From contig OZ026515.1 in NCBI GenBank assembly GCA_964019695.1, positions 40,068,994 through 40,132,993 on the forward strand: 64,000 bases of DNA. Reading direction: 5' to 3'. Below are positions 14,376 to 61,784 of this stretch, one piece after another. The position numbers and the translations under genes were made by a program. Positions within the stretch are counted from its first letter, which is position 1. Every line of letters begins with the position of its first letter. The DNA comes from Loripinus fragilis. Lineage: Eukaryota > Mollusca > Bivalvia > Lucinida > Lucinidae. The notes beneath the pieces were generated by a model. The model saw only the letters and a program-made list of their open reading frames with translations. It was not told the origin of the DNA and ran no database searches.

Positions 14376-14548
14376 AACCTGCAGGATCATGTAAAGAGGC
14401 TAACTTAACAGCGTCTGGAATGGTTGGTTGGTGGGGAGGTAAAAGTGCCAGCCTGAGTCAGCTCAATCAGTGTTCCTCTGACAACTTCCCTGCTGGTCTC
14501 CAGTCTATCATTTACAGACCTCCTTTCAACTTGAATCAACCAGACGAG
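14376..14548 (+). CDS. MEGF8: Exon 5: MEGF8-specific linker, WWGG motif
   Basis: The acceptor is TTTTTTCAG and the donor GACGAG|GTAAGT. It enters in phase 1 and leaves in phase 0. The product contains GMVGWWGGKSASLSQLNQC, then GLQSIIYRPPFNLNQPDE. This tryptophan- and proline-rich stretch lies between the first PSI-like region and the later PSI block, where MEGF8 has its own linker. The 3' part of the exon and its donor are copied four more times downstream (14549-15068). Only this copy has an acceptor, and the extra donors would break the frame, so this donor is the one expected in mRNA. Confidence 0.88.
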
Positions 14549-15068
14549 GTAAGTTATGCTGGTGGCCATGGGATTGATGGAGGTAAAAGTGCCAGCCTGA
14601 GACAGCTCAATGTTCCTCTGACAACTTCCCTGCTGGTCTCCAGTCTATCATTTACAGACCTCCTTTCAACTTGAATCAACCAGATGAGGTAAGTCATTCT
14701 GATGGCCATGGGTTTGTTGGGAGGAGCCGGAGTTAGCTCAATCAATGTTCCTCTGATAACTTCTCTGCTGGTCTATCCTTTACAGACGAGGTAAGCTATG
14801 CTGGTAGCCATGGGTTTCTGGGGAGGCGAAAGTGCCAGCCGGAGTCAGCTCATAAGAGTACCTCTGACATTTTCCCTGCTGGTCTCCCGTCTGTTATATA
14901 CAGACCTCATTTCAACAGAGATAAGTTATGCTGGTAGCCATGGGGTTGTGGGAGGTAAAAGTGCCAGCCTGAGTTGGCTCAGTGTTCCTCTGACAACTTC
15001 CCCGCTGGTCTCCAGTCTATTATTTACAGACCTCCGTTCAACTTAAATCAACCAGATGAGGTAAGTGC
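14549..15068 (+). repeat. Tandem partial copies of exon 5 with donors
   Basis: Four more copies of the exon 5 3' region (GGAGGTAAAAGTGCCAGCCT to CCAGATGAG|GTAAGT). Donors are at 14689, 14791 and 15061; in one copy (14921) GT has become AT. No copy has an acceptor. Spacings of 140, 102 and 270 bases and 4-base indels put the copies out of frame. Confidence 0.9.
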
Positions 15069-15194
15069 TTGATGTTTCCAGGGAATAATTTCAGGCCTTA
15101 TTTCTGCCAAAAATCAAGAAAAATATTGCAAATTTTGTCTTCACGATTTACTTTTAAAGGGTTGATTAAGTAAGAATGTATTGATATAATATAG

Positions 15195-15300
15195 AGGATC
15201 TTACACGAGTGATCATTTCATATGAAATTTATTAAATGAGCCTTCAGGAAGTTTAATAGATTTAATATGAAATGATCACGAGTGTAAGATTCTGTTATCA
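15195..15300. repeat. Inverted repeat, about 35-bp arms
   Basis: GATCTTACACGAGTGATCAT (15199) faces ATGATCAC-type sequence ending GTGTAAGATTC (15290). Confidence 0.75.
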
Positions 15301-15524
15301 TATGATCTTTTAAATGTAATTTATTGCCTTCAAAGTTTGTTTATTTCAATGAAAATTTGCAATATTTTGTTATGGACTTTGTCATGACGTAACTTGTTCC
15401 CGCCGAAAGTGTTATGTAAACTGTGGTCATAACATTATTTATGAAATGACGTTATCCACTGAATAACAGTAATGTCACACGATAAAGTGCATTATTAGAA
15501 ATTGATTTTTTTATTTCTGAAACA

Positions 15525-15605
15525 AAACATGTAATGTGGTCACGCCAAAGAACCATCACAGTGAGACAGTTCTTTTGAGCACCTAGAAACAAGTTAAAAA
15601 AATAT
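15525..15605 (+). repeat. FB-5 hairpin remnant
   Basis: AAAGAACCATCACAGTGAG followed by ACAGTTCTTTTGAGCACC is the FB-5 core. Confidence 0.65.
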
Positions 15606-15677
15606 ATATAGATAGAAATTGTAAGCAATTTTACGCTTGTAAAATGTTTATCTTGAGTCAAGACCTATGTTTATTTA

Positions 15678-15925
15678 ACCCTTTACCTCATAGAGACCCC
15701 TTTTGCAGACAGAGCAGACCCAGATCAGGCAGCTCTTGTAAGAGCTGCCTGATCAGGGTTTACTCTCTTTGCTTATGGAAATATGATTAGATATGGTCCT
15801 ACCCTAGTGGATCTGACATATAACATCTCTGTTCTGTGTACCAACATGAAAGTTTATTTATATAAATATTCATAGTGGGTGGAGCCCAGCATGAATATTC
15901 ATGAAAGAAAGGATTAAAAATGTAA
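15678..15925 (+). mobile_element. FB-13 element, uninterrupted
   Basis: It starts TTAACCCTTTACCTCATAG; centre hairpin CAGATCAGGCAGCTCTT...AAGAGCTGCCTGATCAGG; right part has TTTATTTATATAAATATTC and ends in GGATTAAAAATG. It is the unfilled counterpart of 48056-49360. Confidence 0.75.
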
Positions 15926-15935
15926 TTTTTGATAG

Positions 15936-16154
15936 GTGAAGATAATCAGAGAAACATACGATACAGAGAACTTTCGTTACATCCTCACAAAACCCACTAG
16001 CAATATGAAGGTTCGCTGGACTGGTTTTGTTCATCCACTGAATGCTACGATAAAGTACCTCAACAATGGTTCAGTGATCTACAAGTTCAAGCTGTCGGTA
16101 GAGAATATTTCTGTCACTGTGAGAATCAACAGAGATGACAACACGGAGACAACT
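15936..16154 (+). CDS. MEGF8: Exon 6: MEGF8 linker, beta-rich
   Basis: The acceptor is ATTTTTGATAG and the donor ACAACT|GTAAGT; both ends are phase 0 and the length is 73 codons. The product reads VKIIRETYDTENFRYILTKP, then KVRWTGFVHPLNATIKYL, then VYKF-like strands and VTVRINRDDNTETT. The alternating hydrophobic pattern suggests beta strands. NAT, NGS and NIS sequons fit an extracellular protein. No named domain beyond the MEGF8 linker can be assigned. Confidence 0.9.
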
Positions 16155-16181
16155 GTAAGTACATGTACCGTAAATTTTGAG

Positions 16182-16414
16182 GGCGACGAGATTTCCACTA
16201 ATGTGGTATGTGTGACCAGCAAAGGCTCAGATCAGCCTGCGCATATGCGCAGTCTGATCAGAACCTTTGCTAGTCGCTTGAATATTCTATTACTTTTAGG
16301 CTCCTGACCCAACATCATTTGGCGTTTCTAAGCTTAAAAGGAGGCTGCACAGGCTCGTCTGAGACAACACTCGTCAAAATGCCACATTGTTGGAAATCAC
16401 ATTGTCATGGCTCA
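16182..16414 (+). mobile_element. FB-10 element
   Basis: Left end GAGATTTCCACTAATGTGG and right end CCACATTGTTGGAAATCAC plus GGCTCA are inverted copies; centre TCAGCCTGCGCATATGCGCA. It begins 28 bases after exon 6. Confidence 0.75.
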
Positions 16415-16964
16415 AATGTTCTAAATTTACGAACACATTTAGAGCTCAGAGTTAGCAAATACATGATATATACAGCTGAAAGGTTCATTGTAAACAGCAT
16501 CATTCCATATTCCATAACTTAAACAAAAAAAAATGGATGCTAGTACATCTTGATTGCAAGTTTACTAGAGGAATAATTACAACTGTCATAATATCTATTG
16601 TTATCCGATGAGCCCCAGTTCCTATTCATGAGGGTCGGGGTCATTCACGGCAGACCTTCTTTTGTGATACTGTGCAATGCTTCTACGAAGAGAAATGGAC
16701 AGTCGGAAACTACTTACGCTTTACTTTACACTAAAACAGATATTTTCAGGTGGAATAGCAAATATTAACTCACATCCGACGCTTAAATTAACAGTATTCA
16801 TGCTGATCAGCTGTCTAATGTGACCTCACCGCCATCTTGTTTTTTAACGTCGTGACGTATACATACGCGTCATAGTGCACGTCATAATCTAAATGCGCGA
16901 AACGTTATTAACTGGAAACGTCATAAAATACTGAGGAGAAAGAATAACGAAAGAAGTTGTAATT

Positions 16965-17300
16965 ATAAGAATTGAAATTAATTTTTCTGCGTTTCACTGA
17001 GGTATGAAATCCCTTCCGCTGATTCATTCAAGAAGGGTTGTTGTCAGTTACAAGCGAAAGTATGTGCACGAATTACTGGTTAACCGCTTGTTCAAGCCTG
17101 CCCAGGAAAAAGTGTGGTTAGGTGAACTGACCGTCCCGCAATGACCATAGCTGTTGATTTGGGACGTAAAGCAACAAAACAAACAAACAAACATCTAATT
17201 TTAGCATGAAAACCTTTGGTTTTCATGCAAATTAGATGTAATTTTCCAGACATTCCATACCTCAGTGAAACGCAGAAAAATAACTTTCAATTCTTAAGTA
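16965..17300. repeat. Inverted repeat interrupted by a SINE-B tail
   Basis: Arms TTTTTCTGCGTTTCACTGAG (16990) and CTCAGTGAAACGCAGAAAAA (17262) match. Between them is a SINE-B 3' part (17005-17192) ending in ACAAACAAACAAAC. 16500-16960 has CpG-rich sequence and no recognised element. Confidence 0.7.
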
Positions 17301-17699
17301 AATCCTGCAATCTCTATCCCAAGTGTATTGCACAGCAATTATAGAAATGGGGTACTGAAAAGGTAATTTCAAATCAAAGAAATCTGAGTCAACTTAGTTA
17401 TTTTTACAAGATATTAGAGCATTAAGTTTGACATTATTTACCAACAATGAAAATATCTAGTTTTACTATTTGTACGCCCATAGCAAATTTCAACATGATG
17501 TAACCGTTGTGCAAAATTAAAAAAACAACAACAGAAAAACTATGTCTCACTTCAAGGCCTATAGTGCAGTAGTTTTCAGTAGTATATCAGTTTTGTGTGA
17601 GCAGTGGAGACTTTGGGGAGTCTGCAAAGATACACATGCTTGCCTGAGCCTTTCCTGGTCACTTCTATGATAATCCTTCGCCTGCTATTAAAAAATGCA

Positions 17700-17835
17700 T
17701 CTGATAATGATGTCTGCTGAAGTCATCTGCTGCATGTAAATGCTGACATCAATGGCTAATTTTGGCATACATGCAAACAGTGTGGACCCAAATCAGACTG
17801 CTCCTGTTTGCTACAGAGACATTTTAAATCTACTA
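17700..17835 (+). repeat. FB-1 fragment
   Basis: TGTCTGCTGAAGTCATCTGC, then AACAGTGTGGACCCAAATCA, as in the left half of FB-1. Confidence 0.6.
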
Positions 17836-17847
17836 CATTTATAGGGT

Positions 17848-18330
17848 TTGCACAGGCTTGACAAGTACTTGAATATACAGGACTGTCTTGAAAAATGAAA
17901 AGTCCTTGAAAATTAAATTTGTCCTGAAAAGTACTTGAGTTTTACCATTTACAGGAGGATTCAACACTGTCTTTGGAGACCTAAATCAGTATAAAATTGA
18001 GGTGCCTTTATTTTGTGCCTTTAAATTGAGGTGCCTTTATTTATTTTAATATCTTAGTTTTGTTTGTTTGATTTGATTCTTTATGTCCCATCAACAATCT
18101 TTCAGTTATAAAGGGACAGGTCTTCCTGGGTTGAACCAGTACTAAGCTAGGATTAATTTGTCTAATATCTTTAGTAATGCACACTAGCATTCCGAAGTAG
18201 AATTTTAAACATGTAAATCAGTATTTTTCATAAGTTTTCAGTCCTTGAAAAGAGTAGGAAACTTTTTAAGAAGTCCTTGAAAAGTCCTTAAATTTTACTC
18301 AAACTTGCCTGTATGAACCTTGATTTAGCT
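17848..18330 (+). mobile_element. FB-12 element
   Basis: It begins TAGGGTTTGCACAGGCTTG and runs through CTTGAAAAGTCCTTGAAAA blocks to a right end of CTTGCCTGTATGAACCTTG. The middle carries extra sequence, part of which (18060-18170) matches a SINE-A tail in inverse. Confidence 0.65.
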
Positions 18331-18419
18331 GGATAAGCAACCAAAGAGATAAGTAGCAAGATCTCATATATTAGCTGAAATGATGCGTCATTGTTCAGAC
18401 CTTTAGTTAAGAGTGTATA

Positions 18420-18525
18420 AAAGAAAAATAATTTTCTTATATCTCAACCAAAACATATGTTGTGAGCACCCAAAAAATATGCTAAAAATTATGGGTAAGA
18501 AAATATGTATAATTTTTCACTGAAA
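18420..18525 (+). repeat. FB-5 fragment
   Basis: TTTTCTTATATCTCAACCAA and AACATATGTTGTGAGCACCC are FB-5 arm sequences without the core. Confidence 0.5.
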
Positions 18526-18559
18526 ATTTTTGTTTATCTAAACCTGTCATTATTGTAGT

Positions 18560-18800
18560 TCAGTTTACAGTATGACTACAGATAAGGACTTTTTAGGTGT
18601 ACTGTAAAAGTAAAACAAAATGTGAGAAGTTTTATTTATCTTTTGCGAATAGCATTTAAAGACATATTTGTGACATTAAAAATTTGCGACTTGAGCGTGA
18701 TTTATCTGTATCAGTACCTGCAGAACGATTTTGCAAGGGTTATTTTTTCGCGATACTTTGCATCTGTGATGTCCTTCACGAAAATTTCTTACTTGATTCT
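18560..18800 (+). repeat. Half copy of the TACTGTAAA MITE
   Basis: GTACTGTAAAAGTAAAAC and TTTGCGACTTGAG...TTATCTGTATCAGTA parallel 38613-38830; the right end is missing. Confidence 0.55.
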
Positions 18801-18814
18801 TTAATTATGCATGC

Positions 18815-19020
18815 GGGAGCGCAGTGGCTCAGTGATAGAGTGCTTGACTCGAGACCGAAGGGTAGCGGGTTCGAGCCTCACCGGCTTCACTGCGTTGTGG
18901 TCCTTGAGCAAGACACATTTATCCTAGCTTAGTACTGGTTAAACCCAGGAAGAACCGTCCCGCATAACTGAAAGATTGTTGAGTGGACGTAAAGAATCAA
19001 ATCAAACAAAACAAAAAAAA
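18815..19020 (+). mobile_element. SINE-A, full length with target duplication
   Basis: Head GGGAGCGCAGTGGCTCAGTG (A box) and GGGTTCGAGCCTCACC (B box), body CCCAGGAAGAACCGTCC, tail CAAATCAAACAAAAC. The 11-bp direct repeat ATTATGCATGC flanks it at 18804-18814 and 19021-19031. Confidence 0.9.
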
Positions 19021-19059
19021 ATTATGCATGCACAATTTTCTAGTGGGGTTACATGTCTT

Positions 19060-19175
19060 AAGTTTTGCCCGAGCCTAGAGCAATTTCCCCTTCCTTGCCG
19101 TGCATTTAGCAAAGGTTCTTGTAAGACTTCACATTTGCACAAGCTCGTCTGAGACTTCGCTGCTTGGATATATGA
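19060..19175 (+). repeat. FB-10-like fragment
   Basis: AGCAAAGGTTCTTGTAAGAC and AAGCTCGTCTGAGACTTCGC resemble the inner part of FB-10; ends absent. Confidence 0.4.
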
Positions 19176-19184
19176 TGAATACAG

Positions 19185-19412
19185 GACAGTCCTTTTATGA
19201 TGCTATGTTTTGGGGTCCATAAGAATGGACAGTGTAATAACTGAATTGTGTTTTAAAGCGACACTTGTACAAAGAAATACTAGGAAAATGACCATTTTAT
19301 GGTCATTTTCCTATATTCCTTTGTAAAGTTCAATGGTAAATAAATTTGGGAGCCACAACATGAACGTGTAGTGTTATATCCAAATCCATGTTATAATGAG
19401 ATGTGTTGCAGT
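19185..19412 (+). mobile_element. FB-9 element
   Basis: AGTCCTTTTATGATGCTATG at the left, central GAAAATGACCATTTTATGG with its inverse, and ATGTGTTGCAGTGTACC at the right. Confidence 0.7.
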
Positions 19413-19449
19413 GTACCAAAATCTTAGGAGCTATTTCTCTAATTAACAT

Positions 19450-19680
19450 TAGTTTTGGTACGGTAAATGCTCTAAGATATCTATCACTAATTCCCTGCCG
19501 AAAAGACCAAGACAAACAGTGCAGACCAAGATCAGACTGCTTCTGAAGAAGCAGTCTGATGAGGGTTTTCTCTGTCTGCTATCTGATAAGCATATTGTGA
19601 ACACCAGCCTTGATGACCAACATTTTATTTGAGGACAGAGTGAGAAAAATGTTCAAATATATTCACCATATCATATCTTT
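19450..19680 (+). mobile_element. FB-4 element next to exon 7
   Basis: Ends GGTAAATGCTCTAAG and TGTTCAAATATATTCACC; centre GATCAGACTGCTTCTGAAG with its inverse. It ends about 9 bases before exon 7. Confidence 0.65.
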
Positions 19681-19688
19681 ATTTTCAG

Positions 19689-19914
19689 GAATCTGTTGTT
19701 ACCGCACTATATTCGGAAACCAAGACCTACATGTCGATTGACAAAGAGTTTGACCATAGATTAGATAAATCCCCCATATTCCCGAACCGCAGCCGAGGCA
19801 GTTGTTATTACCTTGATGTAATTGGGGAATACTCGTATCCTGATGCAAAAGACTGGTCAATTGGAGAATCAATGTACTTTCTGAAGCTTGACTGGAATGG
19901 AATCCCATCAACCC
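19689..19914 (+). CDS. MEGF8: Exon 7: MEGF8 linker, second part
   Basis: The acceptor is TTTATTTTCAG and the donor ACCC|GTAAGT; phase 0 in, phase 1 out. The product includes SVVTALYSETKTYMSIDKEF, FPNRSRGSCYYLDVIGEY and SMYFLKLDWNGIPST. It reads as a folded extracellular segment with one cysteine. An FB-4 fold-back element ends only a few bases upstream of the acceptor tract. Confidence 0.9.
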
Positions 19915-19999
19915 GTAAGTTCATACCCGCACATAAGAGGGTTATTGAGTTTACTTTTTTTCTTATTGTCACATCTGAGAGCAATATAATGCCATTTAT

Positions 20000-20595
20000 C
20001 ACATGAGGTCGCATCTGGGGGTGAAATAACGCCATGCATTAAACTGGATAAACCACTAGTGGTTGATTTTGGGAAACGTTATGACCTCCATAACAACGTT
20101 TGGTACATAATGACAAAATTTTAAGGCTTTTACGCCAGAAATGATATTTCAAAGTAATCTTAATGTCATATGATAAATAGAATCTAACATTCATGCTCTG
20201 GTATTATTGAATAATTATACTAGTTCCAAAAAGAGATAAAGTGCTCGGCAAGCCTCACATTTTATCTCTTTTCCCCTACGTGTTTAATAAATTCAATAAA
20301 AAAATGAGCACTCATCTAAGATCCTCTGTGTATTGAAACTGATTAACCACTAGTGGTTTACATATTTATTAACATGTAATAATGTGTATGAAAACTTTGC
20401 AAACATAATAAAAAAAATCTAAACGTTTCCATTTCAAAGATACGCAATTGCAAAATAACTTTTGTGTCATATGATAAATAGAATCTAACATTTGTGCTTC
20501 TGTTTTTTGTGGATAAATGACAAAATACTTGGCAGGCCTCGCAATTTTTCACCTTATGTCAGCTCGTTTTATAATTCAATAAAACTCAAGCTTCA
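20000..20595 (+). repeat. Dispersed 320-bp repeat, two tandem copies
   Basis: Two copies (about 20000-20340 and 20340-20595, the second shortened) share AACCACTAGTGGTT, CATATGATAAATAGAATCTA and GCTCGGCAAGCCTC. A third copy is at 22225-22600. Confidence 0.7.
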
Positions 20596-21197: not shown

Positions 21198-21224
21198 GTG
21201 TCAGTGGTACCCCAACCATCCACC

Positions 21225-21500: not shown

Positions 21501-21524
21501 GGACAACTAGTAAACACTTTTAAC

Positions 21525-22614: not shown

Positions 22615-22883
22615 GCAACAGTTTGAGGAAAATATTCCACACATTCTCACCAGAATTCCTGGAACCCTTCAGTGAAGGGACCTGCGGTAAACACACCAAC
22701 TGTCTAGCCTGTATGTTAGACACCCTGTGTGCCTGGTGTGATCTTGACAAGACCTGTGTCATCAGAAATGTGACAAAGGGGGAGTCCTCGTGTGTGGACC
22801 AGAACAGTAGCAAGATGTTAATAACAGATGGAAGTGTATGCCCAGTATGCTCGGATCATGTGGAGTGTTTGACCTGTGCTCAG
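22615..22883 (+). CDS. MEGF8: Exon 8: PSI module and start of next
   Basis: The acceptor is CTTTCTTTCAG and the donor GCTCAG|GTATTT; phase 1 in, phase 0 out. After a 20-residue lead (HTFSPEFLEPFSEGTC) comes CGKHTNCLACMLDTLCAWC, then DLDKTCVIR. The order C-x-x-x-x-x-C-x-x-C, CxWC and a final C is a clear PSI core. It ends CPVCSDHVECLTCAQ, the opening of a second PSI that exon 9 completes. Confidence 0.93.
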
Positions 22884-22924
22884 GTATTTGACTGGTCTTT
22901 CACAGTGCCATTCAGCCTAATGAT

Positions 22925-23349: not shown

Positions 23350-23445
23350 GCATGAGGAGCGCTGTGGCTCAGTGGTAGAGTACTTGACTCGAGATCGAGG
23401 GGTTGCGGGTTCAAGCCTCACCGGAGGCACTGCATTATATGGATC
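23350..23445 (+). mobile_element. SINE-A, 5' part only
   Basis: GCTGTGGCTCAGTGGTAGAG and GGGTTCAAGCCTCACCGG are present; the copy stops after GGCACTGCATT. Confidence 0.75.
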
Positions 23446-26090: not shown

Positions 26091-26200
26091 GATCCATTTT
26101 GTGAATGGGTGACAGATGCTGTTGTATGTGTACGTCGCGGAAGAATGAACGGCACCAAAGCAGTTACAAATCCCAACAATTGTCCAGCAGCCTGTCATGG
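26091..26200 (+). CDS. MEGF8: Exon 9: PSI module, second half
   Basis: The acceptor is TTGTTTCAG and the donor CATGG|GTAGGT; phase 0 in, phase 2 out. The product is DPFCEWVTDAVVCVRRGR then NGTKAVTNPNNCPAACHG. It follows the cysteines of exon 8 (CSDHVECLTCAQ) to finish a PSI module. The 3' part of the exon and its donor are tandemly duplicated at 26288-26420. Confidence 0.9.
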
Positions 26201-26420
26201 GTAGGTGAACATTATGATATCTATCTTGATTGTTAGGGAAATATGGCTTGAAATTTCGTGTGAATCCTCTGCCAGCATCTGAATTTAGTCGCGTAAGAAT
26301 GAACGGCACCAAAGCAGTTACAAATCCCAACAATTGTCCAGCAGCCTGTCATTGGTAGGTGAACATTTTGATATCTATCTTGATTGTTAGGGAAATATGG
26401 CTTGAAATTTCATTGAATCG
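26134..26420 (+). repeat. 154-bp tandem duplication across exon 9 donor
   Basis: 26134-26287 and 26288-26420 are direct copies, both with GAATGAACGGCACCAAAGC and GGTAGGTGAACATT. The second copy holds a donor at 26355 but no acceptor. Further on, 26425-26480 is an FB-7 fragment. Confidence 0.9.
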
Positions 26421-26548
26421 TCTGCCTGCAGATGATTCACATGAAATATCAAGCCTTACTGGTTTTACAACCTTATTTGTTTTACAAAATTAAAAAAGTC
26501 TTCTGCTGTAAATGTTTGGCACCAAAAGATTAGTATTCGAGCTGGATC

Positions 26549-31224: not shown

Positions 31225-31453
31225 GTCCCTATGGTAACATGAGTTGTTCCGCCAGGGTTAACAGAGCTCATCCATATGTATCTATGAACAAGAGTGCAGA
31301 CTGGTCGTATCAGATGTGCCCCGACATTGATGAGTGTACGCTGGGACTGAGCAGGTGTCATAAGAATGCTGTCTGTGTTAACACACCTACAAACTATACC
31401 TGTACCTGTGAACGAGGATACGAGGGTGATGGAATCAAGAGCTGCCAGAGAAC
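31225..31453 (+). CDS. MEGF8: Exon 11: calcium-binding EGF domain
   Basis: The acceptor is TAACTATTACAG and the donor GAGAAC|GTGAGT; phase 1 in, phase 2 out. After [18 protein letters not shown] comes [14 protein letters not shown], then [17 protein letters not shown] and [13 protein letters not shown]-x-D-E-C with the N-x-x-x-x-Y/F segment ([10 protein letters not shown]) is the calcium-binding EGF signature with six cysteines. A decayed copy of part of this exon lies in the next intron (32495-32583). Confidence 0.95.
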
Positions 31454-32494: not shown

Positions 32495-32583
32495 CACCGG
32501 CTTGTCATATCATGTGTGCCCTGACATTGACCAGTTTACGCTGGGATTGAGCAGGTGCGGCAAGAATGCTTTCCATTCTTGAA
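32495..32583 (+). pseudogene. Decayed copy of exon 11 in intron 11
   Basis: 32501-32570 aligns without gaps to 31301-31370 of exon 11, exactly 1200 bases upstream, with 57 of 70 bases the same. The frame reads CPDIDQFTLGLSRCGKNAF, so the calcium-binding EGF motif DIDEC has become DIDQF, and a TGA stop follows at 32581. No donor is kept. This is a dead partial exon duplicate. Confidence 0.85.
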
Positions 32584-35184: not shown

Positions 35185-35386
35185 CAGGGAGCGCAGTGGC
35201 TCAGTGGTAGAGTGCTTGGCTCGAGACCGAGAGGCCGCGGGTTCGAACCTCACCGGCGTCACTGCGTTGTCGTCCTTGAGCAAGGCACATTCATCCTAGC
35301 TTAGTACTGGTTCAACCCAGGAAGACCCGTCCCTGTTTAACTGAAAAATTGTTGATGGGACGTAAAGAATCAAATCAAATAAACAA
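35185..35386 (+). mobile_element. SINE-A, full length with 14-bp target duplication
   Basis: GGGAGCGCAGTGGCTCAGTG head, GGGTTCGAACCTCACC B box, CAAATCAAATAAACAA tail. ACATAATCACAATA lies on both sides (35171-35184 and 35387-35400). The matching place in the first duplicate (near 34138) has no SINE. Confidence 0.92.
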
Positions 35387-39740: not shown

Positions 39741-40189
39741 TGTGTAGTAAAGCAAAGAATATAATTTATGACATTTAACACCCTGCTGCATTGGGCCAAT
39801 ATATCTGACATTCGGACTGAATCGAATTCAAAATGGAAAGTATGTGACATTGAACATGAAATTACCAGCTATATCTGCAGTATATTAATACATCATAGCT
39901 GTGCAAGTATAGAATAACCATCAGGTTCATCTTGGGTATGGGGATACATACTGGTCCAAAATATGGTTCAGTACCATCCCTATTCCCCTAGTAGGTGATC
40001 CATACTGAAGTTTTGACTAAGTTTGCAAGACCTCATTAGTAAACTGACCTGGATTTACACTGCATTCAAAAGAGGGTATAGAGTTTTGATAAAGTTATTG
40101 ATACAGTTCACTTAATAGATTGATTAAGGTACTGTGAAAGAGCAGTCAAACACCTTAGCAAAGGACAAACACTCAACATGATCCTCATA

Positions 40190-40420
40190 CTGGGCATACA
40201 CGCCGCATGTGTTTTCCAACAATGTGGCATTTTGACAAGTGTAGACTCAGCCTCCTTTTAAGCTTTGAAACTCCAAATGATGTTCCGTCAGTAGCTTAAC
40301 ACTCGTAGAATATTCAAGCGACGAGCAAAGGCTCTGATCAGAATGTGCGTATGCACAGGCTGATCTGAACCTTTACTGGTCGCACATACCACATTGTTGG
40401 AAATCTCATGCACTGGCTCA
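40190..40420 (-). mobile_element. FB-10 element, inverse
   Basis: AACAATGTGGCATTTTGACA at the left; ACCACATTGTTGGAAATCTC and GGCTCA at the right; the interior reads as the inverse of other copies. Confidence 0.8.
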
Positions 40421-43845: not shown

Positions 43846-44049
43846 TTGGAGTGCAGTGGCTCAGTGGTAGAGTGCTTGACTCGAGACCAAGAGGCCGCGG
43901 GTTCGAGCCTCACCGGCGTCACTGCGTTGTGGTCCTTGAGCAAGACACAATTATCCTAGCTTAGTACTGGTTCAACCCAGGAAGACCCTGTTTAACTGAA
44001 AGATTGTTGATGGGATGTAAAGAATCAAATAAAACAAAAACAAACAAAA
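43846..44049 (+). mobile_element. SINE-A with target duplication
   Basis: GGAGTGCAGTGGCTCAGTGG to CAAATAAAACAAAAAC; GCATGGTGGTACT before and GCATGGTTGTACT after. Confidence 0.88.
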
Positions 44050-45962: not shown

Positions 45963-46158
45963 CAACCAGCCTGGGTGATGGGTGTAGCAGGGCACACTAT
46001 GACACTTGTTGAGGAGACGAAGCTCATCATCATAGGCGGCTTCTCCACAACTAAATATTTCAGTGACACGGTCTACGAGTTTGATGCCAACAGTTATCTG
46101 ACACCTTCACCTTGGCAGGTGCATAAGTGGGACAATGTTACTGGTGCCAAGCCTACAG
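45963..46158 (+). CDS. MEGF8: Exon 19: Kelch blade 3 of propeller 2
   Basis: The acceptor is GATCTTGTAG and the donor CTACAG|GTGAGT; phase 0 in, phase 1 out. The product reads GVAGHTMTLVEETKLIIIGG, then SDTVYEFDANSYLTP and WQVHKWDNVTGAKPT. G-H, LIIIGG and V-Y-E-F fit a blade. The donor region is the founder of a 26-bp tandem repeat that runs into the intron; the copies have GGGGAG in place of GGTGAG and so have lost the donor. Confidence 0.94.
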
Positions 46159-46245
46159 GTGAGTTTATTTCCTCAAACCTACTGGGGAGTTAATTTCCTC
46201 AAACCTACTGGGGAGTTGATTTCCTCAAACCTACTGGGGAGTTTA
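46152..46245 (+). repeat. 26-bp minisatellite founded on the exon 19 donor
   Basis: Four units at 26-base steps: CCTACAGGTGAGTT (the real donor), then three of CCTACTGGGGAGTT. All share TTTCCTCAAACC. The three intron units have lost the GT. Confidence 0.88.
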
Positions 46246-46800
46246 TTAAACTGAGTTCCACAGCCAACGCAACTCTCAGTTCAAACTTTAACCCTTAATG
46301 CGCCAATTGCAACAAAAGTTGTCTGCTTTTCTCGTCTGCTGAAGTATTTAAGTAGCCTCTATGGCAAACAGTATGGACCCAGATCAGACTGTTCTAGGCC
46401 CACGCCGTTTCATTCTATACTCAATTCGTCAGTAATGTTAGGCAATTTTTTGCAGCAGACAACTTCATCAGACGACATTTTCAGATGCATTTTTTTCTTG
46501 GCGCTTTAAGGGTTAATTTTCTCAAACCTACCTGGTGAGTTTATTATCATGAGTTCCACAGCCATCGCAACTCTCAGTTCAAACTTTAACCCTTAAAGCG
46601 CCACCTATAATTTGCAGCAGGTGACAATATCAAATTTTGCCCATTTTTCAAAAATAACCAATAAGGCATGATTTTTTCATGAGAATCGTCTGCTGGCAGA
46701 CGATTCTCATGTAATATCATACCTTATTTTTGTTGAAAATTGGGAAAGATGCTGCAAAATTTGTGGTCTGCTGCAGTTGTGATTGGCGCTTTAAGGGTTA
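46219..46800 (+). repeat. Duplicated flank followed by two different elements
   Basis: GAGTTCCACAGCC to CAGTTCAAACTTTAACCC occurs at 46219-46292 and 46517-46594. The first is followed by an inverse FB-1 (46289-46516) and the second by an FB-7 (46592-46800), both starting TTTAACCCTTAA at the same point. Confidence 0.8.
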
Positions 46801-50425: not shown

Positions 50426-50570
50426 GTTGAGCACCGCTACTTTCACTCTGCCGTGGGCCTGCCAGATTATATGGCCATCATTGGTGGCTACACTCACCAT
50501 AGAAACACATCAACAACTATTCTGATCTATAAGTTCAAGTGTAACTATTGGTACAAGTTAGACTTAGCAG
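50426..50570 (+). CDS. MEGF8: Exon 21: Kelch blade 5 of propeller 2
   Basis: The acceptor is TTTTCCCTGCAG and the donor TTAGCAG|GTAAGT; phase 0 in, phase 1 out. The product reads HRYFHSAVGLPDYMAIIGGY, THHRNTSTTILIYKFKCN and YWYKLDLA: a Kelch blade with R-Y-x-H, IIGGY, I-Y-K-F and Y-W. Five partial copies with intact donors follow (50571-51197). None has a pyrimidine tract and acceptor, so this is the only complete exon. The first two extra copies are in frame with it. Confidence 0.92.
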
Positions 50571-51200
50571 GTAAGTTTAGCTACACTCACCATAGAAACA
50601 CGTCAACAACTATTCTGATCTATAAGTTCAAGTGTAACTATTGGTACAGACTAGACTTAGCAGGTAAGTTTAGATACACTCACCATAGAAACACGTCAAC
50701 AACTATTCTGATCTATAAGTTCAAGTGTAACTATTGGTACAAACTAGACTTAGTAGGTAAGTTAAGTATCGCTACTCTGCCGTGGGCCTGCCAGATTATA
50801 TGGCCGTCATTGGTGGCTACACTCACCATAGAAACACGTCAACAACTATTCTGATCTATAAGTTCAAGTGTAACTATTGGTACAAACTAGACTTAGTAGG
50901 TAAGTTAAGTATCGCTACTTTCACTTTGCTGTGGGCATGCAAGATTATATGGCTATCATTGGTGGCTACACTCACCATAGAAACACGTCAACAACTATTC
51001 TCATCTATAAGTTCAAGTGTAACTATTGGTACAAACTAGACTTAGTAGGTAAGTTTAGTATCGCTACTTTCACTCTGCTGTGGGCCTGTCAGATTATATG
51101 GCCGTCATTGGTGGCTACACTCACCATAGAAACACATCAACAGCTATTCTGATCTATAAGTTCAAGTGTAACTATTGGTACAAACTAGACTTGGCAGGTA
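50571..51200 (+). repeat. Five partial tandem copies of exon 21 with donors
   Basis: Copies end at 50663, 50756, 50899, 51048 and 51197, each at AG|GTAAGT. Steps are 93, 93, 143, 149 and 149 bases. The first two 93-bp copies keep the frame (31 codons); later ones shift it. Copies 4-6 reach further 5' (ATCGCTACTTTCACTCTGC) than copies 2-3. No copy has an acceptor. Confidence 0.92.
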
Positions 51201-51700
51201 AGTTTATATGAAAAAGCAAAACAAAAACACTTTGACCTGTCTGTAGCACCACTAGCATACATCTGAGTCATTTGGAACTGCCTCGGCCAATTCTGTTGAA
51301 TCAGACCTTGGTTGTACATCGAGGGTCTACTTTGATAATGTGACGCTGACATCACATAACATGACGCTTGCGTTACAGAAACCATGCCAAATACAAAAAA
51401 AAAACAAGTTCAATTGCAGTGAAACAAATGTTTTCAACGTTCTATGAAGTTTAGGTTATTTCAATAAAATATCGCTGTAGCGACATTTTATAAAAAAAAC
51501 TTTAACTTCATTTATATTGTTGACAGAATAATGTATTTTAGTAGAGCTGAACCCACATACTATAGTACAAATTTTCCTTACACCAATTCTGGCTAATAAA
51601 ATGCAGCTTTTTCATACATAGTACTACACCTTACATACATCCGAGGCTTGATTCTTGAATTGAGCCTAAGTTTTCTGATTGGCATCTTTATGTGTCCAAG
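51201..51700. other. Intron 21 segment, nothing recognised
   Basis: No family from this window is visible in these 500 bases. Confidence 0.4.
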
Positions 51701-55594: not shown

Positions 55595-55624
55595 GTAAGA
55601 AGTGATGTTTTGTTGGATATATTG

Positions 55625-55855
55625 GGTTTATGGTAAATGGTCTAAAATTTCGAACATTAGTTACCTGCAGGAAAAGCCTAAGCAAACAGCGCAGACCCAG
55701 ATCAGACTGCTTCTGAAGAAGCAGTCCGATCAGGGTCTTCCCTGTTTGCTTTTCTGAGATGCATTTTGCGAATTGCAACCCTGATAACCAATATTTTATT
55801 TGAGAACAAAAAGAGAAAAGTGTTTGAGAGTTGAGAACATTTACCATAGTACTGA
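55625..55855 (+). mobile_element. FB-4 element
   Basis: TATGGTAAATGGTCTAAAAT and GAGAACATTTACCATAG ends; centre GATCAGACTGCTTCTGAAG. Confidence 0.8.
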
Positions 55856-55914
55856 ATGAGGGAGCTGAATGGGTGATGCTCTTTGGATTTTTCGGGCTTT
55901 GTCCTGAATATTGC

Positions 55915-56040
55915 TCAATAGTTTTGTTAGTCTGTTAGCCTCATAGTTACTACTTGTCTTTTGTTGTCTCTCTCATCTGCTTATGTTCTTAGGTTGCCTT
56001 TTTTGCAGACAATGTTATAGTGCAGGCTTTCTTCTTGGAA
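55915..56040 (+). repeat. FB-2 half element
   Basis: GTCTCTCTCATCTGCTTATG and TTGCAGACAATGTTATAG are FB-2 flank words. Confidence 0.45.
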
Positions 56041-56079
56041 GCATATTTTTAGTCCCCTATTGCTAATCGTCAAAGGCTG

Positions 56080-56590
56080 GTTTGGGAACTATAGGTTTGC
56101 ATGATTTCATCCATTCATCTGTCCATCCGTCACACTTACATGTCCAGACCATATCTTATATATGGTTAAGCCAAATTAAGATTATTACCCATAGCATGAA
56201 GGTATGTCACGTACAACACTTAGCCGCCAACTTCCAAGGTCAAGGTCACAACTTTGACTCAAAGTCTGTCAGTAACGCTGTAATCCTGAGTCTCATGATC
56301 GGCCATATCTCCTACAAAGATAGGTTAAATTCATTATAACTTCACACGATTATCACCTATAGCATAAAGGTGTGTAGTGCACAATACTTAGCCACCACCT
56401 TTTAGGTCAAGGTCACAACTTTGACTCAAATTTGGTCAGAAGCTGCTATACTCAGAATTTTGTGTCCGGGCCATATTTCCTACATGGGTTTGATCAATTC
56501 ATTAAAGCTTTACATGATTATTACCCATAGCATAGCAATTTGTTGTGCATAACACTTAACCACCAACTCCAAGGTCCCAACTTTTAACTC
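56080..56590 (+). repeat. Tandem repeat, about 190-bp unit, three copies
   Basis: AAGGTCAAGGTCACAACTTT and ATTAYYMCCCATAGCAT-type segments recur (around 56190, 56355, 56525). TTGTAAATTGAAAAACATTT is also doubled at 56608 and 56653. Confidence 0.75.
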
Positions 56591-56698
56591 TAATATCTGT
56601 CAATCTGTCATTTGTAAATTGAAAAACATTTAAGAAAAATTGTGTCCGCTTTGTAAATTGAAAAACATTTAAGATATTTTTACGAAACTTCCTACAAA

Positions 56699-56935
56699 TG
56701 AACCGCGACATGAGATTTCCAACAATGTGGTATGTGCAACCAGTAAACTCACACCAGCCTGCGCATACGCGCAGTCTGATCAGAGCCTTTGCTAGTCACT
56801 TAAATATTCAATGAGTGTTAAGCTACTGATCGAACATCATTTGGAGTTTCTACGCCTAAAAGGAGGCTGCACAGGCTCGTCTAAGTCTACACATGTCAAA
56901 ATGCCACATTGTTGGAAATCACATGTTACGGCTCA
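56699..56935 (+). mobile_element. FB-10 element
   Basis: TGAACCGCGACATGAG and CATGTTACGGCTCA ends; AACAATGTGGTATGTGC inside. Confidence 0.85.
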
Positions 56936-57039
56936 AATATTAAGCATTATGAGGCGACATGCAAAATGCAAGAACTGTAACTCTTGGTTACCTATTTTAG
57001 CTAACCTGAGACATAGGCTGAAAGTGAGCTATTGTGATC

Positions 57040-57550
57040 TTAGGATGTCCGTCATCAGTCAACAATTTGCTTCAAACAACATCACCTAAACTTCTGGGTG
57101 GAATGCCACCAAACTTCACAGAAATGATACTTTGGGGGTCCTTTTCAAAGTTGTTCAAAGAAGTCCATTTGAGAAGGAAAAACTTGACATTTTTTTGTAA
57201 ATATTGGTCAGATTTGAAAATAATTTGATACCCTTGGGTGACACCAAGGTTAGTCAAATTATGCTGATTTTTTGAAAAACATGGCTGTCAGGGGGATATA
57301 TAGGAAAAAACTTAAAAAGCTTCTTGTCGAAAATTACTGGGACGATTTGAAAATAATTTGGCACAAGTAGTCATTGGATGGCCTTCTACCAAGATGTTTC
57401 AAATTTATTTGATCGGTTGAAAAACATGGCCGCCAGGGGACAGGGCCAGTTTTTCATCTGTATCCATAGGGAAAACTTTAAAAATCATCTTGTCAAAAAT
57501 AACACCCAGGCGATTCGAAAACGATTCAGCACAAAATATCCTAGGTAGAC
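57040..57550 (+). repeat. Tandem-like repeat with AACATGGCYG motif
   Basis: ATTTGAAAATAATTTG (57212, 57347), AAAAACATGGCTGTCAGGGG and AAAAACATGGCCGCCAGGGG mark about three diverged units. A piece of the same repeat is at 600-720. Confidence 0.65.
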
Positions 57551-57559
57551 CCCTACAAT

Positions 57560-57845
57560 AATAAAGAAAGTTGATTTTGAATAAAATCAGGAGAGGGCAA
57601 AAAAGCATGTACATTTCCCAGTTTGCAAAGAGTTAATTCAAAGCCTACTAGTGTCGTCTGCCCATAACTTTTACAAACAGATTGGACCCAGATCAGGCCG
57701 GACAAAATGTTGGGCCTGATCTTGATCCAATCTGTTTGACACTTAGATGGTATTTTTGAAAGAATTTTTCGAAAAATTTGATTTCGAAATGAAATCAGCA
57801 GACGACATAAAAGTGTGAAAAATTTCCCAGTAGGCAAAGAGTTAA
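57560..57845 (+). mobile_element. FB-3 element plus half copy
   Basis: A right half ends at AAAGAGTTAA (57635), then a full copy with GATCAGGCCGGACAAAATGT and inverse ends GGCAAAGAGTTAA (57845). Confidence 0.75.
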
Positions 57846-57944
57846 GGGAATAAGTACTAGTTATTCAGGGTCTGTCCCATATATTTTACAACTGCGCAAG
57901 TAGCAGCTTAGCAAAACATAGTTCATGATATCAAATTTGGTGAT

Positions 57945-58390
57945 ATAGCTGTCATGTAAACATAAACAATTTGCTATATAGTGACAGGTATTTTAGTACT
58001 GATAGGCAGATTGAGATGTTTAAAAGAGGCAAAGCCAATGGACATGATACTTGTTTAGTGTATATTTCTGAACATGTTTCCTTAATTTCAGTAGCATATG
58101 TTGTTGGTTCAGATTGGAATTGCCTCAATGAGGCAATTCCAATGTGCACCTACAACATATGTCAATTCAATAAATGAATGTTTTTCACCATAATTTTTTT
58201 TTCACAAATTTGTCAACTACTTTTTAATGTTTCAGTGTAATGAGCATGTAGAAATGAACAAGTTATTGTGTAGTTTGGCTTGCACCTGGATGACAATAAT
58301 AGATAGCCAATTTTATATTATTGACAGTTTATCTTTAGATGTTTCATTGGAATGAAATGCTAACTTGGTGGTTGCCTGGTTTTATATCTT
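57945..58390 (+). repeat. Long dispersed repeat reaching exon 24
   Basis: Inverse partner of 43325-43800 (CATGTAAACATAAACAATTT to GGTTGCCTGGTTTTATAT). The centre GAATTGCCTCAATGAGGCAA is palindromic. The right end overlaps the pyrimidine tract of exon 24. Confidence 0.85.
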
Positions 58391-58395
58391 TACAG

Positions 58396-58636
58396 ACTTG
58401 CTACTGGTGTACGAAGTGTAAGTTTGACAAATGTTTACCAATTCACAAAGACTGTGAGCCATACGACGATGGGAACAAATGCAGGGTGTTTGAGCGGGAG
58501 AAGTCTTCCACCCGTGCCTTCCAGCCACCAGAGAGGTCTTGTCTAATCCAACCATGTACAGCCTCCACCTGTGACCGTTGCGCCCAGATGGGTTGTATCT
58601 GGACCCAGCATTTTGAGAGAATTCTCCATTCAGCAG
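58396..58636 (+). CDS. MEGF8: Exon 24: PSI modules
   Basis: The acceptor is ATATCTTTACAG and the donor TCAGCAG|GTAAAC; phase 0 in, phase 1 out. The product reads TCYWCTKCKFDKCLPIHKDC, then SCLIQPCTASTCDRC and AQMGCIWTQHFERI. CYWC completes the PSI begun in exon 23, and CTASTCDRC with CIW starts another. The donor and its flank recur twice downstream at a spacing of 197 bases. Confidence 0.92.
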
Positions 58637-59240
58637 GTAAACTGGTGCATTTCTGTATTTACAGGAAATTTTCTAAAATTTTGAACTTTTTTCTCTTTCT
58701 GTTCTAAAATAAAACGTTGGTTATCAGGGCTGGCATTCTCAAAATGCTTGTCAGAAAAGCAAACAGGGAATACCTTGATCAGACTGCTTCTTCAGAAGCA
58801 GTCTGATCTGGGTCTGCTCTGTTTGTCTAGCAGGTAAACTGTTGCATTTCTGTATTTACGGAAAATGTTCTAAAATTTTGAACACTTTTCTCTCACTGTT
58901 CTCAAATAAAACATTGGTTATCAGGGCAGGCATTCTCAAAATGCTTGTCAGAATAGCAAACAGGGAAGATCCTGATCAGACTGCTTCTTCAGAAGCAGTC
59001 TGATCTGGGTCTGCTCTGTTTGTCTTACAGGTAAACTGGTGTTTTTCTGTATTTAAGGAAAATGTTCTAAAATTTCGAAAACACTTTTCTCTTTATGTTC
59101 TCAGATTAAACGTTGGTTATCAGGGCTGGCATTCTCAAAATGCTTGATGCCGATCAGACTGCTTCTTCAGAAGCAGTTTGATCTGGGTTTGCACCTGTTT
59201 TACCCTTTTTGGCAGGCAACTTGTATTCAAAATTTTAGAA
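58637..59240 (+). repeat. 197-bp tandem array carrying exon 24 donor and FB-4
   Basis: CAG|GTAAACTG recurs at 58637, 58834 and 59031, exactly 197 bases apart, each followed by TTTCTGTATTTA and an FB-4 unit (CTTCTTCAGAAGCAGTCTG). So the last bases of exon 24, the donor and an FB-4 were copied together. At the third copy TTTGTCTTACAG could also act as an acceptor. Confidence 0.88.
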
Positions 59241-59610
59241 CCTTTACCTTACCCAAAAAATTTGAAGGATAGGCAGAAGTTGTGTGTTAAGGGTTTAGAC
59301 TTTTTATTACCCTTTTACTTTCTCATTATGACACCACCTTTGAAAAAAAATTACAGTGGGATATTGATCTCAGTTCATCATTCCTTCAGTCCATCACTGA
59401 TAGTAGTGGAAATATCATTGACAAGATGACATTTTGACAGACATCCAAAAATATTACCAATGGTATGACTTTGTTTAATTGTTTTTAGACCAATGGAATT
59501 TTTGATAGTTAAGTCGGGATGGTCCATTATATATATTGAGGGGTCACAGGTATATTTTCCAAAATATTTTCTTTCTTTATTAGAAGATCTATTTTGTCAT
59601 AGAAAACAGT
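59240..59610. other. Intron 24 segment with FB-6-like scraps
   Basis: 59480-59600 has GGTCCATTATATATATTGAG and AGGGGTCACAGGTATAT, weakly like FB-6. Otherwise nothing recognised. Confidence 0.35.
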
Positions 59611-59690
59611 GCAGACCCTGATGAAATGCCACATTTTGCTGCATTTCATTTGGGTCTTCACTGTTTGCTAATGTACTCGTTTAGGAGGTT
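59600..59690 (+). repeat. FB-6 core
   Basis: CAGTGCAGACCCTGATGAAA, TGCCACATTTTGCTGC and ATTTCATTTGGGTCTTCAC. Confidence 0.7.
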
Positions 59691-59844
59691 ATGGATGAGG
59701 GCACAGTGTAACACAAACATAATTTTTTGTTAGCTTGTACCATGGTCTCTTTTGATTTTTTTCGGAAAACAACAGTGATGAGACGGGTGTCTAAATATTA
59801 AGGCTATAAATGGTTCCAACCTTCTGAAGGATTAGTCTAATCAG

Positions 59845-59995
59845 GGTATACTGTAAAAGTTCTAAAATTCCAAACACATTTCTCTTACTGTTCTTAAATA
59901 AAATGATAGGTCCACAAATTGCTTGACAGAATAGCAATCAGGGAAGACCTGGTCAGACTGCCTCTTTTGTTTGTCGAGACCTGTTTGGCAACTCA
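59845..59995 (+). repeat. FB-4 remnant
   Basis: TACTGTAAAAGTTCTAAAAT and AATAGCAATCAGGGAAGACC; the core is lost. Confidence 0.55.
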
Positions 59996-59999
59996 TTTT

Positions 60000-60265
60000 A
60001 ACTACTAGCATGCTGGGTAATTTTTTAAGATTTTGTTGCTGTCTGCGAAGTTAACTTAAAAGTTAACTTTTACAAAAAAATAGATTCTTTCAGGAACACT
60101 ATCAGAGTGTCAAATGGTTTGAACCCAGATCAGGACCGATCAAACAGTTTGAATCCAGATCAGGACTGACATTCTGTCGGTCCTAGAATATTGGTTCTGA
60201 TCTGGGTTCAATCTGTTTGCAAAGGTTATCAGCAGCCTGTAAATGTCACAGCTAGCAAGTAAAGG
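60000..60265 (-). mobile_element. FB-3 element with doubled arm
   Basis: TAACTACTAGCATGCTGGG start; AAACAGTTTGAATCCAGATC/AAATGGTTTGAACCCAGATC occurs twice (60110, 60150) before a single partner arm. Confidence 0.7.
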
Positions 60266-60273
60266 GCTGATAC

Positions 60274-60487
60274 TTAACCTTTAAAGCGCCAACCATGACT
60301 GCAGCAGACGACAAATTTTGGGACATCTTTCCCAGTTTTCGACAAAAATAAGGTATGATATTACATGAGAATCATCTGCCAGCAGACGATTCTCATGAAA
60401 TATCATGCCTTATTTGTTATTTTGAAAAAGCGGCAAAATTTGAAATTGACGTCTGCTGCAAATTATAGGTGGCGCTTTAAGGGTTAA
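60274..60487 (-). mobile_element. FB-7 element before exon 25
   Basis: TTAACCTTTAAAGCGCCAAC and GCGCTTTAAGGGTTAA ends; centre GAGAATCATCTGCCAGCAGA. It ends 20 bases before exon 25. Confidence 0.85.
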
Positions 60488-60507
60488 GTCTGACCGTAAC
60501 GTTTTAG

Positions 60508-60728
60508 GGGAGAACAAGTGGTGGAGAACTGCATATATCCCTAAATACGACTGGAGCTGTGTGTCTAAGAGCCTTAAGAAGAACCTGGAAGGATATTCTA
60601 TGTTTATGGCCCCTCCTGCCGCTTGCCCTAAACCGTGTTACGTACACAACAAGTGTGAAGATTGTCTGGATGCCAGGGGTGGAGAAGGAGGATCACAGCA
60701 ATGTTACTGGAGTGAGGCCTTAAGTGAG
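60508..60728 (+). CDS. MEGF8: Exon 25: PSI module (first copy of a tandem array)
   Basis: The acceptor is AACGTTTTAG and the first donor GTGAG|GTATGT; phase 1 in, phase 0 out. The product reads GENKWWRTAYIPKYDWSC, then CPKPCYVHNKCEDCLDARGG and QQCYWSEALSE, a PSI core. The 3' part of the exon plus 22 bases of intron is the unit of an eight-copy, 150-bp array. Reading through stays open to 61832, and every copy offers the same donor in the same phase, so the true 3' end could be 60728, any later donor, or 61778. The shortest form matches the usual single PSI. Confidence 0.88.
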
Positions 60729-61784
60729 GTATGTATTTGTCATTATGCTATGTTTATGGCCCCTCCTGCCGCTTGCCCTAAACCGTGTTACGTACACAAC
60801 AAGTGTGAAGATTGTCTGGATGCCAGGGGTGGAGAAGGAGGATCACAGCAATGTTACTGGAGTGAGGCCTTAAGTGAGGTATGTATTTGTCATTATGCTA
60901 TGTTTATGGCCCCTCCTGCCGCTTGCCCTAAACCGTGTTACGTACACAACAAGTGTGAAGATTGTCTGGATGCCAGGGGTGGAGAAGGAGGATCACAGCA
61001 ATGTTACTGGAGTGAGGCCTTAAGTGAGGTATGTATTTGTCATTATGCTATGTTTATGGCCCCTCCTGCCGCTTGCCCTAAACCGTGTTACGTACACAAC
61101 AAGTGTGAAGATTGTCTGGATGCCAGGGGTGGAGAAGGAGGATCACAGCAATGTTACTGGAGTGAGGCCTTAAGTGAGGTATGTATTTGTCATTATGCTA
61201 TGTTTATGGCCCCTCCTGCCGCTTGCCCTAAACCGTGTTACGTACACAACAAGTGTGAAGATTGTCTGGATGCCAGGGGTGGAGAAGGAGGATCACAGCA
61301 ATGTTACTGGAGTGAGGCCTTAAGTGAGGTATGTATTTGTCATTATGCTATGTTTATGGCCCCTCCTGCCGCCTGCCCTAAACCTTGTTACATACACAAC
61401 AAGTGTGAAGATTGTCTGGATGCCAGGGGTGGAGAAGGAGGATCACAGCAATGTTACTGGAGTGAGGCCTTAAGTGAGGTATGTATTTGTCATTATGCTA
61501 TGTTTATGGCCCCTCCTGCCGCCTGCCCTAAACCTTGTTACATACACAACAAGTGTGAGGATTGTCTAGATGCCAGGGGTGGAGAAGGAGGATCACAGCA
61601 ATGTTACTGGAGTGAGGCCTTAAGAGAGGTATGTATTGGTCATTATGCTATGTTTATGGCCCCTCCTGCCCTCTGCTCTAAACCTTGTTACGTACACAAT
61701 AAATGTGAGGATTGTCTAGATGCCAGGGGCGGAGAGGGAGGATCACAGAAATGTTACTGGAGTGAGGCCTTAAGTGAGGTATGT
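60600..61784 (+). repeat. Eight-copy 150-bp tandem array on exon 25
   Basis: Units start at 60600, 60750, 60900, 61050, 61200, 61350, 61500 and 61650. Units 1-5 are the same base for base; 6 and 7 differ slightly; 8 differs most. Each unit has 129 bases of exon-like PSI sequence and GAG|GTATGT. The whole array is one open frame of 50-residue repeats with seven cysteines each (ACPKPCYVHNKCEDC, QQCYW, VCICHYA). No internal acceptor is seen. Confidence 0.95.

Follow-up and report, generated by a model that had tools for sequence, protein, structure and literature searches.

The MEGF8 gene of Loripinus fragilis carries multiplied splice donors. The window analysed here, a stretch of 64,000 nucleotides (positions 40068994–40132993 of the large contig C2 in a 1.99-Gb assembly), contains most of this gene on its + strand, and at six of the 25 donors within it the end of the exon, the donor and the start of the intron recur as local copies in the following intron. 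None of the 25 acceptors is copied in this way. These arrays are probably local duplications that persist without being used; donor arrays would be favoured, although not exclusively.

Donor arrays in MEGF8

Three approaches were combined: self-comparison with BLAST, Tandem Repeats Finder and a test of all 50 exon borders in the window, in which the last 60 bases of the exon and first 20 bases of the intron were compared with the intron that follows, over at most 1.5 kb (acceptors were treated as the mirror image). The exon 9 duplication was missed by Tandem Repeats Finder and the exon 19 array by the BLAST step. Local copies spanning the border are present at 6 of the 50 borders, all of them donors (6 of 25 donors, 0 of 25 acceptors), with z scores of 68 (exon 9), 68 (exon 25), 54 (exon 5), 49 (exon 21), 12.7 (exon 24) and 12.0 (exon 19). 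The next-best border is acceptor 1 with a z score of 3.8, where the intron side is a dispersed repeat. An earlier note made from the letters alone had described six exons with tail and donor amplified into the next intron, and the border test bears this out. The copy numbers given for exons 9 (two), 21 (six), 24 (three) and 25 (eight) also hold, all with GT donors. Two of its counts need amendment: the five copies of exon 5 are present as units, but only four keep a GT donor, the unit near 14922 having lost it and reading AGA|TAAG, and the four donor units at exon 19 are indeed 26-bp units (3.8 of them), but the three extra ones read GGGGAG with the GT gone. Only about 10 exon bases lie inside the exon 19 array.

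The arrays vary in construction (Table 1). That of exon 21 has two 93-bp steps followed by steps of 143–149 bp, which contain much of the exon without its acceptor, and therefore it probably arose in two events. The exon 24 unit takes in the last 5 bases of the exon, the rest being intron and partly a dispersed repeat, and the last two donors of this array come after pyrimidine-rich tracts. At exon 25, units 2–5 are identical in the assembly. Unit match levels differ among the arrays (82–98%, Tandem Repeats Finder), which indicates different ages. Nothing special is apparent in the introns after the six exons, which are 1.4–3.3 kb long (median 1.8 kb for the others). Array edges share words of merely 4–8 bp, the GC skew of the six array donors is no different from that of the others (p 0.17), and AG|GT donors are not enriched among the six (5/6 vs 10/19 others, p 0.34). 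The interior of exon 11 (31301–31373) also has an 81%-identical copy at 32501–32573, with neither border included.

Table 1. Multiplied or displaced exon borders and the exons to which they belong. Positions are those of the window unless a contig (C2) or an extracted locus (L024, L031, L035) is named.
Feature	Position	Strand	Details
Exon 5	14376..14548	+	sole copy with acceptor; donor GAG|GTAAGT at 14549; tblastn to Mya MEGF8 residues 661–721, gene model
Exon 5 donor array	14435..15066	+	5 uneven units; GT donors 14549, 14689, 14791, 15061
Exon 9	26091..26200	+	donor TGG|GTAGGT at 26201; tblastn, gene model
Exon 9 donor duplication	26134..26430	+	2 copies at 154 bp, second donor 26355; 95% identity over 144 bp
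Exon 19 end and array	46148..46247	+	26-bp units x 3.8; GT only in the first (46159)
Exon 21 (kelch)	50426..50570	+	copy with acceptor; donor CAG|GTAAGT at 50571
Exon 21 donor array	50487..51206	+	donors 50571, 50664, 50757, 50900, 51049, 51198
Exon 24 donor array	58632..59200	+	197-bp units; 3 donors CAG|GTAAAC: 58637, 58834, 59031
Exon 25 (PSI-like region)	60508..60728	+	copy with acceptor; tblastn, gene model
Exon 25 donor array	60594..61784	+	150-bp units x 7.9; eight donors GAG|GTATGT
Inverted exon 8 copy	40128..40213	-	exon end, donor and 26 bp of intron; source 22823–22909, 17 kb away
Exon 31	C2:40143808-40143934		MEGF8, downstream of window; matches Mya residues 2381–2422
Exon 31 donor array	L024 about 815-3020 (C2:40143808-40146013)		13 donors CCAG|GTAATATT including the exon's own, over 2.1 kb
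WAP exon acceptor array	L031 about 1300-3456		17 acceptor copies with pyrimidine tracts
Myosin exon tail and copy	L035:175-315 and 829-973		

Random placement was simulated with 20 arrays with units of at least 20 bp, compiled from Tandem Repeats Finder and the self-comparison; microsatellites, periods below 20 and BLAST pairs that were non-adjacent, diverged or dispersed-repeat-like were dropped from this list. Six donor-spanning arrays were observed where 0.70 would be expected (P for at least six = 3.4e-5), and 0 of 20,000 simulations reached six. With at least 15 bp required on either side of the donor there are four against 0.48 expected (P = 9e-4), and weighting the 14 intronic arrays threefold gives P = 3e-3. 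This agrees with the excess over random expectation claimed in the earlier note; the test was run on the window where the pattern was first noticed, and all three P values are nominal and post hoc. For acceptor-spanning arrays 0.68 are expected and none is observed (P0 = 0.50), a zero that alone means little; the donor to acceptor ratio of 6:0 gives a one-sided p of 0.016 in a sign test.

The same pattern extends beyond the window, where exon 31 has a seventh donor array (z 59 in the border test); the other MEGF8 borders tested outside the window, six donors and nine acceptors, have z scores of at most 1.7. Two of the exon 31 units include the last piece of the intron upstream of the exon. They lack ~29 bp that correspond to the polypyrimidine tract and the original AG (GATTGATGAGG...TAGGTGTATG vs GATTGGTGAGGTGTATG), a loss that was read by eye; the local alignment begins after the deletion and does not display it. 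The two units may represent a single event that was copied once. If copied acceptors are selected against, a loss of the tract like this one would be expected.

Gene identity and gene model

The gene is MEGF8, as judged by sequence comparison. The joined exon peptides match Mya arenaria MEGF8 best, at 49% identity and with 99% of the query covered; among the proteins listed (in one search 120 of 187), none is similar enough to belong to the same species. In addition, tblastn with this protein (P0001) places residues 502–2137 collinearly across the window in 25 exons. Nearly all of the remaining MEGF8 sequence is found in the 40 kb before and the 60 kb after the window, such that residues 64–2784 are collinear over 164 kb. 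Exon borders were set from the tblastn matches with splice sites picked by inspection, and in the chosen model all 25 donors start with GT, all acceptors end with AG, and no stop interrupts the spliced reading. The donors aligned were these 25 and seven outside the window, with one further outside donor examined by self-BLAST alone. Exon 4 of the earlier note has no tblastn match to Mya MEGF8, and its numbering, retained here, seems to hold this one surplus exon. A PSI domain match (E 3e-4, below the cut-off) falls in the part of the query that comes from exon 26. Three matches to the tRNA family (Rfam) are present on the + strand at 23359–23429, 35190–35261 and 43850–43921 and are possibly tRNA-derived short interspersed elements.

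Coding status of the copies

When the 25 first copies are spliced together, the resulting frame is open and follows Mya MEGF8 collinearly. Reading on to the later donors meets stop codons at exons 5, 9 and 24, and at exon 21 from the fourth donor on, and the 12 later donors of exon 31 likewise follow a stop codon. In a comparison of 135 nt among copies 1, 5 and 6 of exon 21, the private changes of copy 1 are three synonymous and none amino-acid-changing, while the corresponding counts are 3/4 for copy 5 and 1/3 for copy 6. Because the later donors lead to stops and the changes in the first copy of exon 21 are silent only, the first copy appears to be the exon of the gene and most other copies appear to be intron, with exon 25 a possible exception. 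Coding use of all arrays is ruled out by the frames and stops.

Copies of exon borders in other genes

Units of exon 5 recur 2.6 Mb away as a three-unit array (C2:42674999-42675393) between two exons of apparently another gene. A MEGF8 paralogue at this location (C2:42.67 Mb) was considered and rejected: tblastn with Mya MEGF8 finds nothing in 100 kb there, and, dispersed repeats aside, exon 5 is the only window exon that matched. The 150 kb around the remote units contain exons for WAP, Kazal, Kunitz and thyroglobulin type-1 domains (Pfam), which were taken as one gene and used as a control, with exon borders set by a simple rule or by hand. No donor array was found at the 19 exons examined in this gene; the donor of the exon at 77932 has a z score of 10.8 but is not spanned, and by eye lies 11 bp before a dispersed-repeat pair. 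The control gene does contain an acceptor array, however, with 17 copies of the acceptor TTTACTGTTTCAG|TAAG including the exon's own, each leading into the beginning of the exon, and with the complete WAP exon last. This array mirrors those of MEGF8 and rules out a strict donors-only rule; the earlier observation that the donor side is copied and the acceptor is not holds within the window but does not extend to this gene.

Some copies are not in tandem. The junction of exon 8 is present as an inverted copy within the window, and a 90%-identical copy of the 3′ part, donor and intron start of a myosin P-loop exon lies 654 bp downstream, lacking the acceptor. Both the myosin copy and the exon 5 unit begin near a donor-like sequence, CAGGTAAAA and GAGGTAAAA respectively. 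The myosin exon comes from domain searches of the genome, of which the best candidates only were scored: 150 of 1,309 for CUB (150 matches), 103 of 125 for dynein DHC_N2 (95 matches) and 65 of 266 for the myosin head (74 matches). These were scanned by eye for neighbours with the same range within ~2 kb, a procedure that weaker copies escape, and the myosin exon is the one such pair among the best matches. Two dynein matches on contig C14 with profile positions 221–264 in common are 5.5 kb apart and were omitted as too distant.

Over the loci sampled, border-spanning copies are found at eight donors, of which six make up the discovery set, and at one acceptor (p 0.04); including the exon 8 copy gives nine and one (p 0.02). 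Without the discovery six, the tally is two donors (exon 31 and myosin) to one acceptor, or 3:1 with exon 8 (p 0.63), and outside MEGF8 it is 1:1. These tallies sample the genome-wide donor/acceptor count that the earlier note proposed. Visible copies affect 3 of 33 exons in MEGF8 (21, 25 and 31) as against 1 of 169 dynein and myosin matches (p 0.014), or 1 of 319 matches when CUB is added (p 0.003), although the MEGF8 figure derives from tblastn with the Mya protein and the others from domain searches, and MEGF8 was picked for its arrays.

Probable tolerance of duplicated donors

We favour an origin in which segments straddling an exon end, comprising the exon tail, the donor and the intron start, would have been tandemly duplicated repeatedly and at different times, with some arrays then expanding, probably by unequal exchange. 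The first copy would retain the acceptor and remain the real exon. Because the introns are 1.4–3.3 kb long, the first among equal donors is expected to prevail and any further donor to be silent: the spliceosome would pair the lone acceptor with whichever donor is closest on the far side of the exon, so that splicing would take place at the first donor and the extra copies would remain idle in the intron. Duplications of this kind would be near-neutral and so persist, whereas those within an exon or of a working upstream acceptor would more often be harmful. Acceptor arrays would be possible too, ending in the complete exon. Since an added upstream acceptor is likely to be riskier than an added donor, the survival of the arrays and their donor bias could both be explained without a special process. 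Published minigene work is consistent with this: where two equal CAG/guaagu donors compete in exon-definition minigenes the upstream, exon-proximal one is exclusively used, and for competing acceptors the upstream preference is weaker under exon definition or with long introns (PMC9225289). Tolerance was one of three causes offered in the earlier note and is the best supported of them, through the stops, the exon 21 changes, the tract loss in the exon 31 copies and the minigene results.

Several points weigh against this explanation. The same paper reports a preference for the downstream donor in ~60% when all alternative donors are considered, an upstream preference being limited to donors that are nearly equal in strength, as well as skipping of large exons that have weak donors (PMC9225289). 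The 17 WAP acceptors have pyrimidine tracts and belong to a class that the model disfavours, and the inverted copy of exon 8 lies 17 kb from its source, where an argument from donor tolerance is inapplicable. Neutral tolerance alone does not predict that donor-spanning arrays should exceed intronic arrays per base, yet six were seen against 0.7. MEGF8 also looks richer in copies than other genes, and the duplication rate may be raised here or at exon tails.

Alternative explanations

A copying process that itself favours exon tails with their donors, such as template switching, or repair where transcription pauses near donors, would make donor junctions mutational hot spots. It would account for the excess of donor-spanning arrays over uniform placement in the window, for the seventh array at exon 31, for the inverted exon 8 junction and the non-tandem, acceptor-less myosin copy, and for the overall tallies of 8:1 and 9:1. 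These tallies are dominated by the discovery set, however, and shrink to 2:1 or 3:1 in the remainder and to parity outside MEGF8; the WAP array sits at an acceptor, the six donors have neither a GC-skew nor an AG|GT preference, and selection against acceptor copies is expected to give the same bias. We therefore regard such a process as unlikely, although it is the foremost of the alternatives. A replication or R-loop process directed at donors, as the earlier note proposed, may act here, but the GC-skew and AG|GT comparisons do not show it. The broader form of this alternative, in which exon tails with donors are preferred DNA-copying substrates in this lineage, would give rise to arrays in tandem, to displaced copies such as those of exon 8 and myosin, to remote ones (exon 5, 2.6 Mb) and to a steady source of silent donors and, where in frame, of new protein repeats; it is at present a doubtful conjecture.

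Some arrays could be used in coding, with exon 25 adding 0–7 extra 50-residue repeats and exon 21 adding 0–2 extra 31-residue repeats, in the manner of the variable ubiquitin units of UBC. All eight donors of exon 25 are in frame with no stop over 1,050 bp, donors 2 and 3 of exon 21 are likewise in frame and stop-free, and copies 1 and 8 of exon 25 differ with a synonymous divergence (dS) of 0.27 and a nonsynonymous divergence (dN) of 0.05. Units that are both a multiple of three and open are seen in these two cases and not at exons 5, 9, 24 and 31, the later donors of exon 21 meet stops from the fourth on, and by chance one third of periods are divisible by three. Moreover, units 2–5 of exon 25 equal unit 1 except for its first bases and are uninformative on selection, the private changes of unit 8 are four synonymous and four amino-acid-changing, and Mya MEGF8 has a single unit of the exon 25 type; we consider coding use of these arrays improbable. 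If used, the in-frame exon 25 units (60729–61784) would each contribute seven cysteines, two of which come from intron sequence, as counted by eye on the translation.

It is more improbable still that the extra donors form a chain of recursive or dual-specific splice sites aiding intron removal. The two inner junctions of exon 24, CTGCTCTGTTTGTCTAGCAG|GTAAAC and CTGCTCTGTTTGTCTTACAG|GTAAAC, have pyrimidine fractions of 0.72 and 0.78 compared with a mean of 0.71 for the real acceptors. The fraction is 0.28–0.44, however, in all units of exons 21 and 25 and in three exon 5 units out of the four with GT, which is no higher than the 0.44 of the lowest real acceptor; the remaining exon 5 GT unit has 0.61, the exon 9 copy has 0.61 but no AG, and the exon 19 copies lack a GT. 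As a separate observation, the exon 24 inner junctions (58814–59036) resemble recursive AG|GT sites made by duplication.

The copies carry private substitutions and indels, which makes assembly error an unlikely main cause, and creation of the arrays by an assembly or haplotype-merging artefact is very improbable indeed given that one gene holds arrays of differing unit length and two other genes also contain arrays or copies, even though units 2–5 of exon 25 are identical.

Comparison with known systems

If border-spanning duplications are invisible to splicing, they would constitute a hidden reservoir of spare sites and partial exons for new introns, recursive sites and protein repeats, and the donor to acceptor array ratio of a single genome would then be a natural gauge of how well each type of splice-site duplication is tolerated. 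Automatic annotation may misplace exon ends in genes of this kind.

In mutually exclusive tandem exons the copies sit in the intron beside the original, as they do here, but the copies in the window have no acceptor and cannot be separate exons: no window acceptor is copied, and the two exon 31 units that extend upstream lack the pyrimidine tract. The arrays resemble minisatellites in unit length, copy number and local homogenisation but differ in spanning a splice site and in mostly including coding sequence. No report of arrays of exon tail plus donor was found among the matches listed in a search of the open-licence PubMed Central (PMC) literature by titles and abstract openings.

Closer parallels exist among duplications bounded by splice-site motifs. 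Tandem duplication of a segment with AGGT has been described as a route of genuine intron gain, in which duplication of AG|GT yields units running from GT to AG and the coding sequence may stay intact (PMC3443670). Units here are similarly bounded by AG|GT on both sides at exons 5 (4 of 5 units), 21, 24, 25 and 31, though not at exon 9 (GG|GT and TG|GT) or exon 19 (copies without GT). Unlike in that route, the AG|GT is an existing donor, the intron grows and no exon is newly interrupted: the arrays lie inside the following intron and the first copies are collinear with Mya MEGF8. UBC and VCX3A contain tandem arrays of dual-specific AG|GT sites, the expansion of which is thought to be less harmful since the units are spliceable (PMC10809524). 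The delimitation of units by AG|GT is shared, and the exon 25 units are in frame as those of UBC are, but the UBC repeats are coding (PMC10809524), whereas the majority of the MEGF8 units leave the frame or run into stops. Exon 24 aside, most also lack an acceptor-like pyrimidine tract, the junctions that are acceptor-like by sequence being those of exon 24 and, less so, one unit of exon 5. The MEGF8 arrays thus belong to the same field as the AGGT duplications and UBC, but they lengthen introns with mostly dead exon tails.

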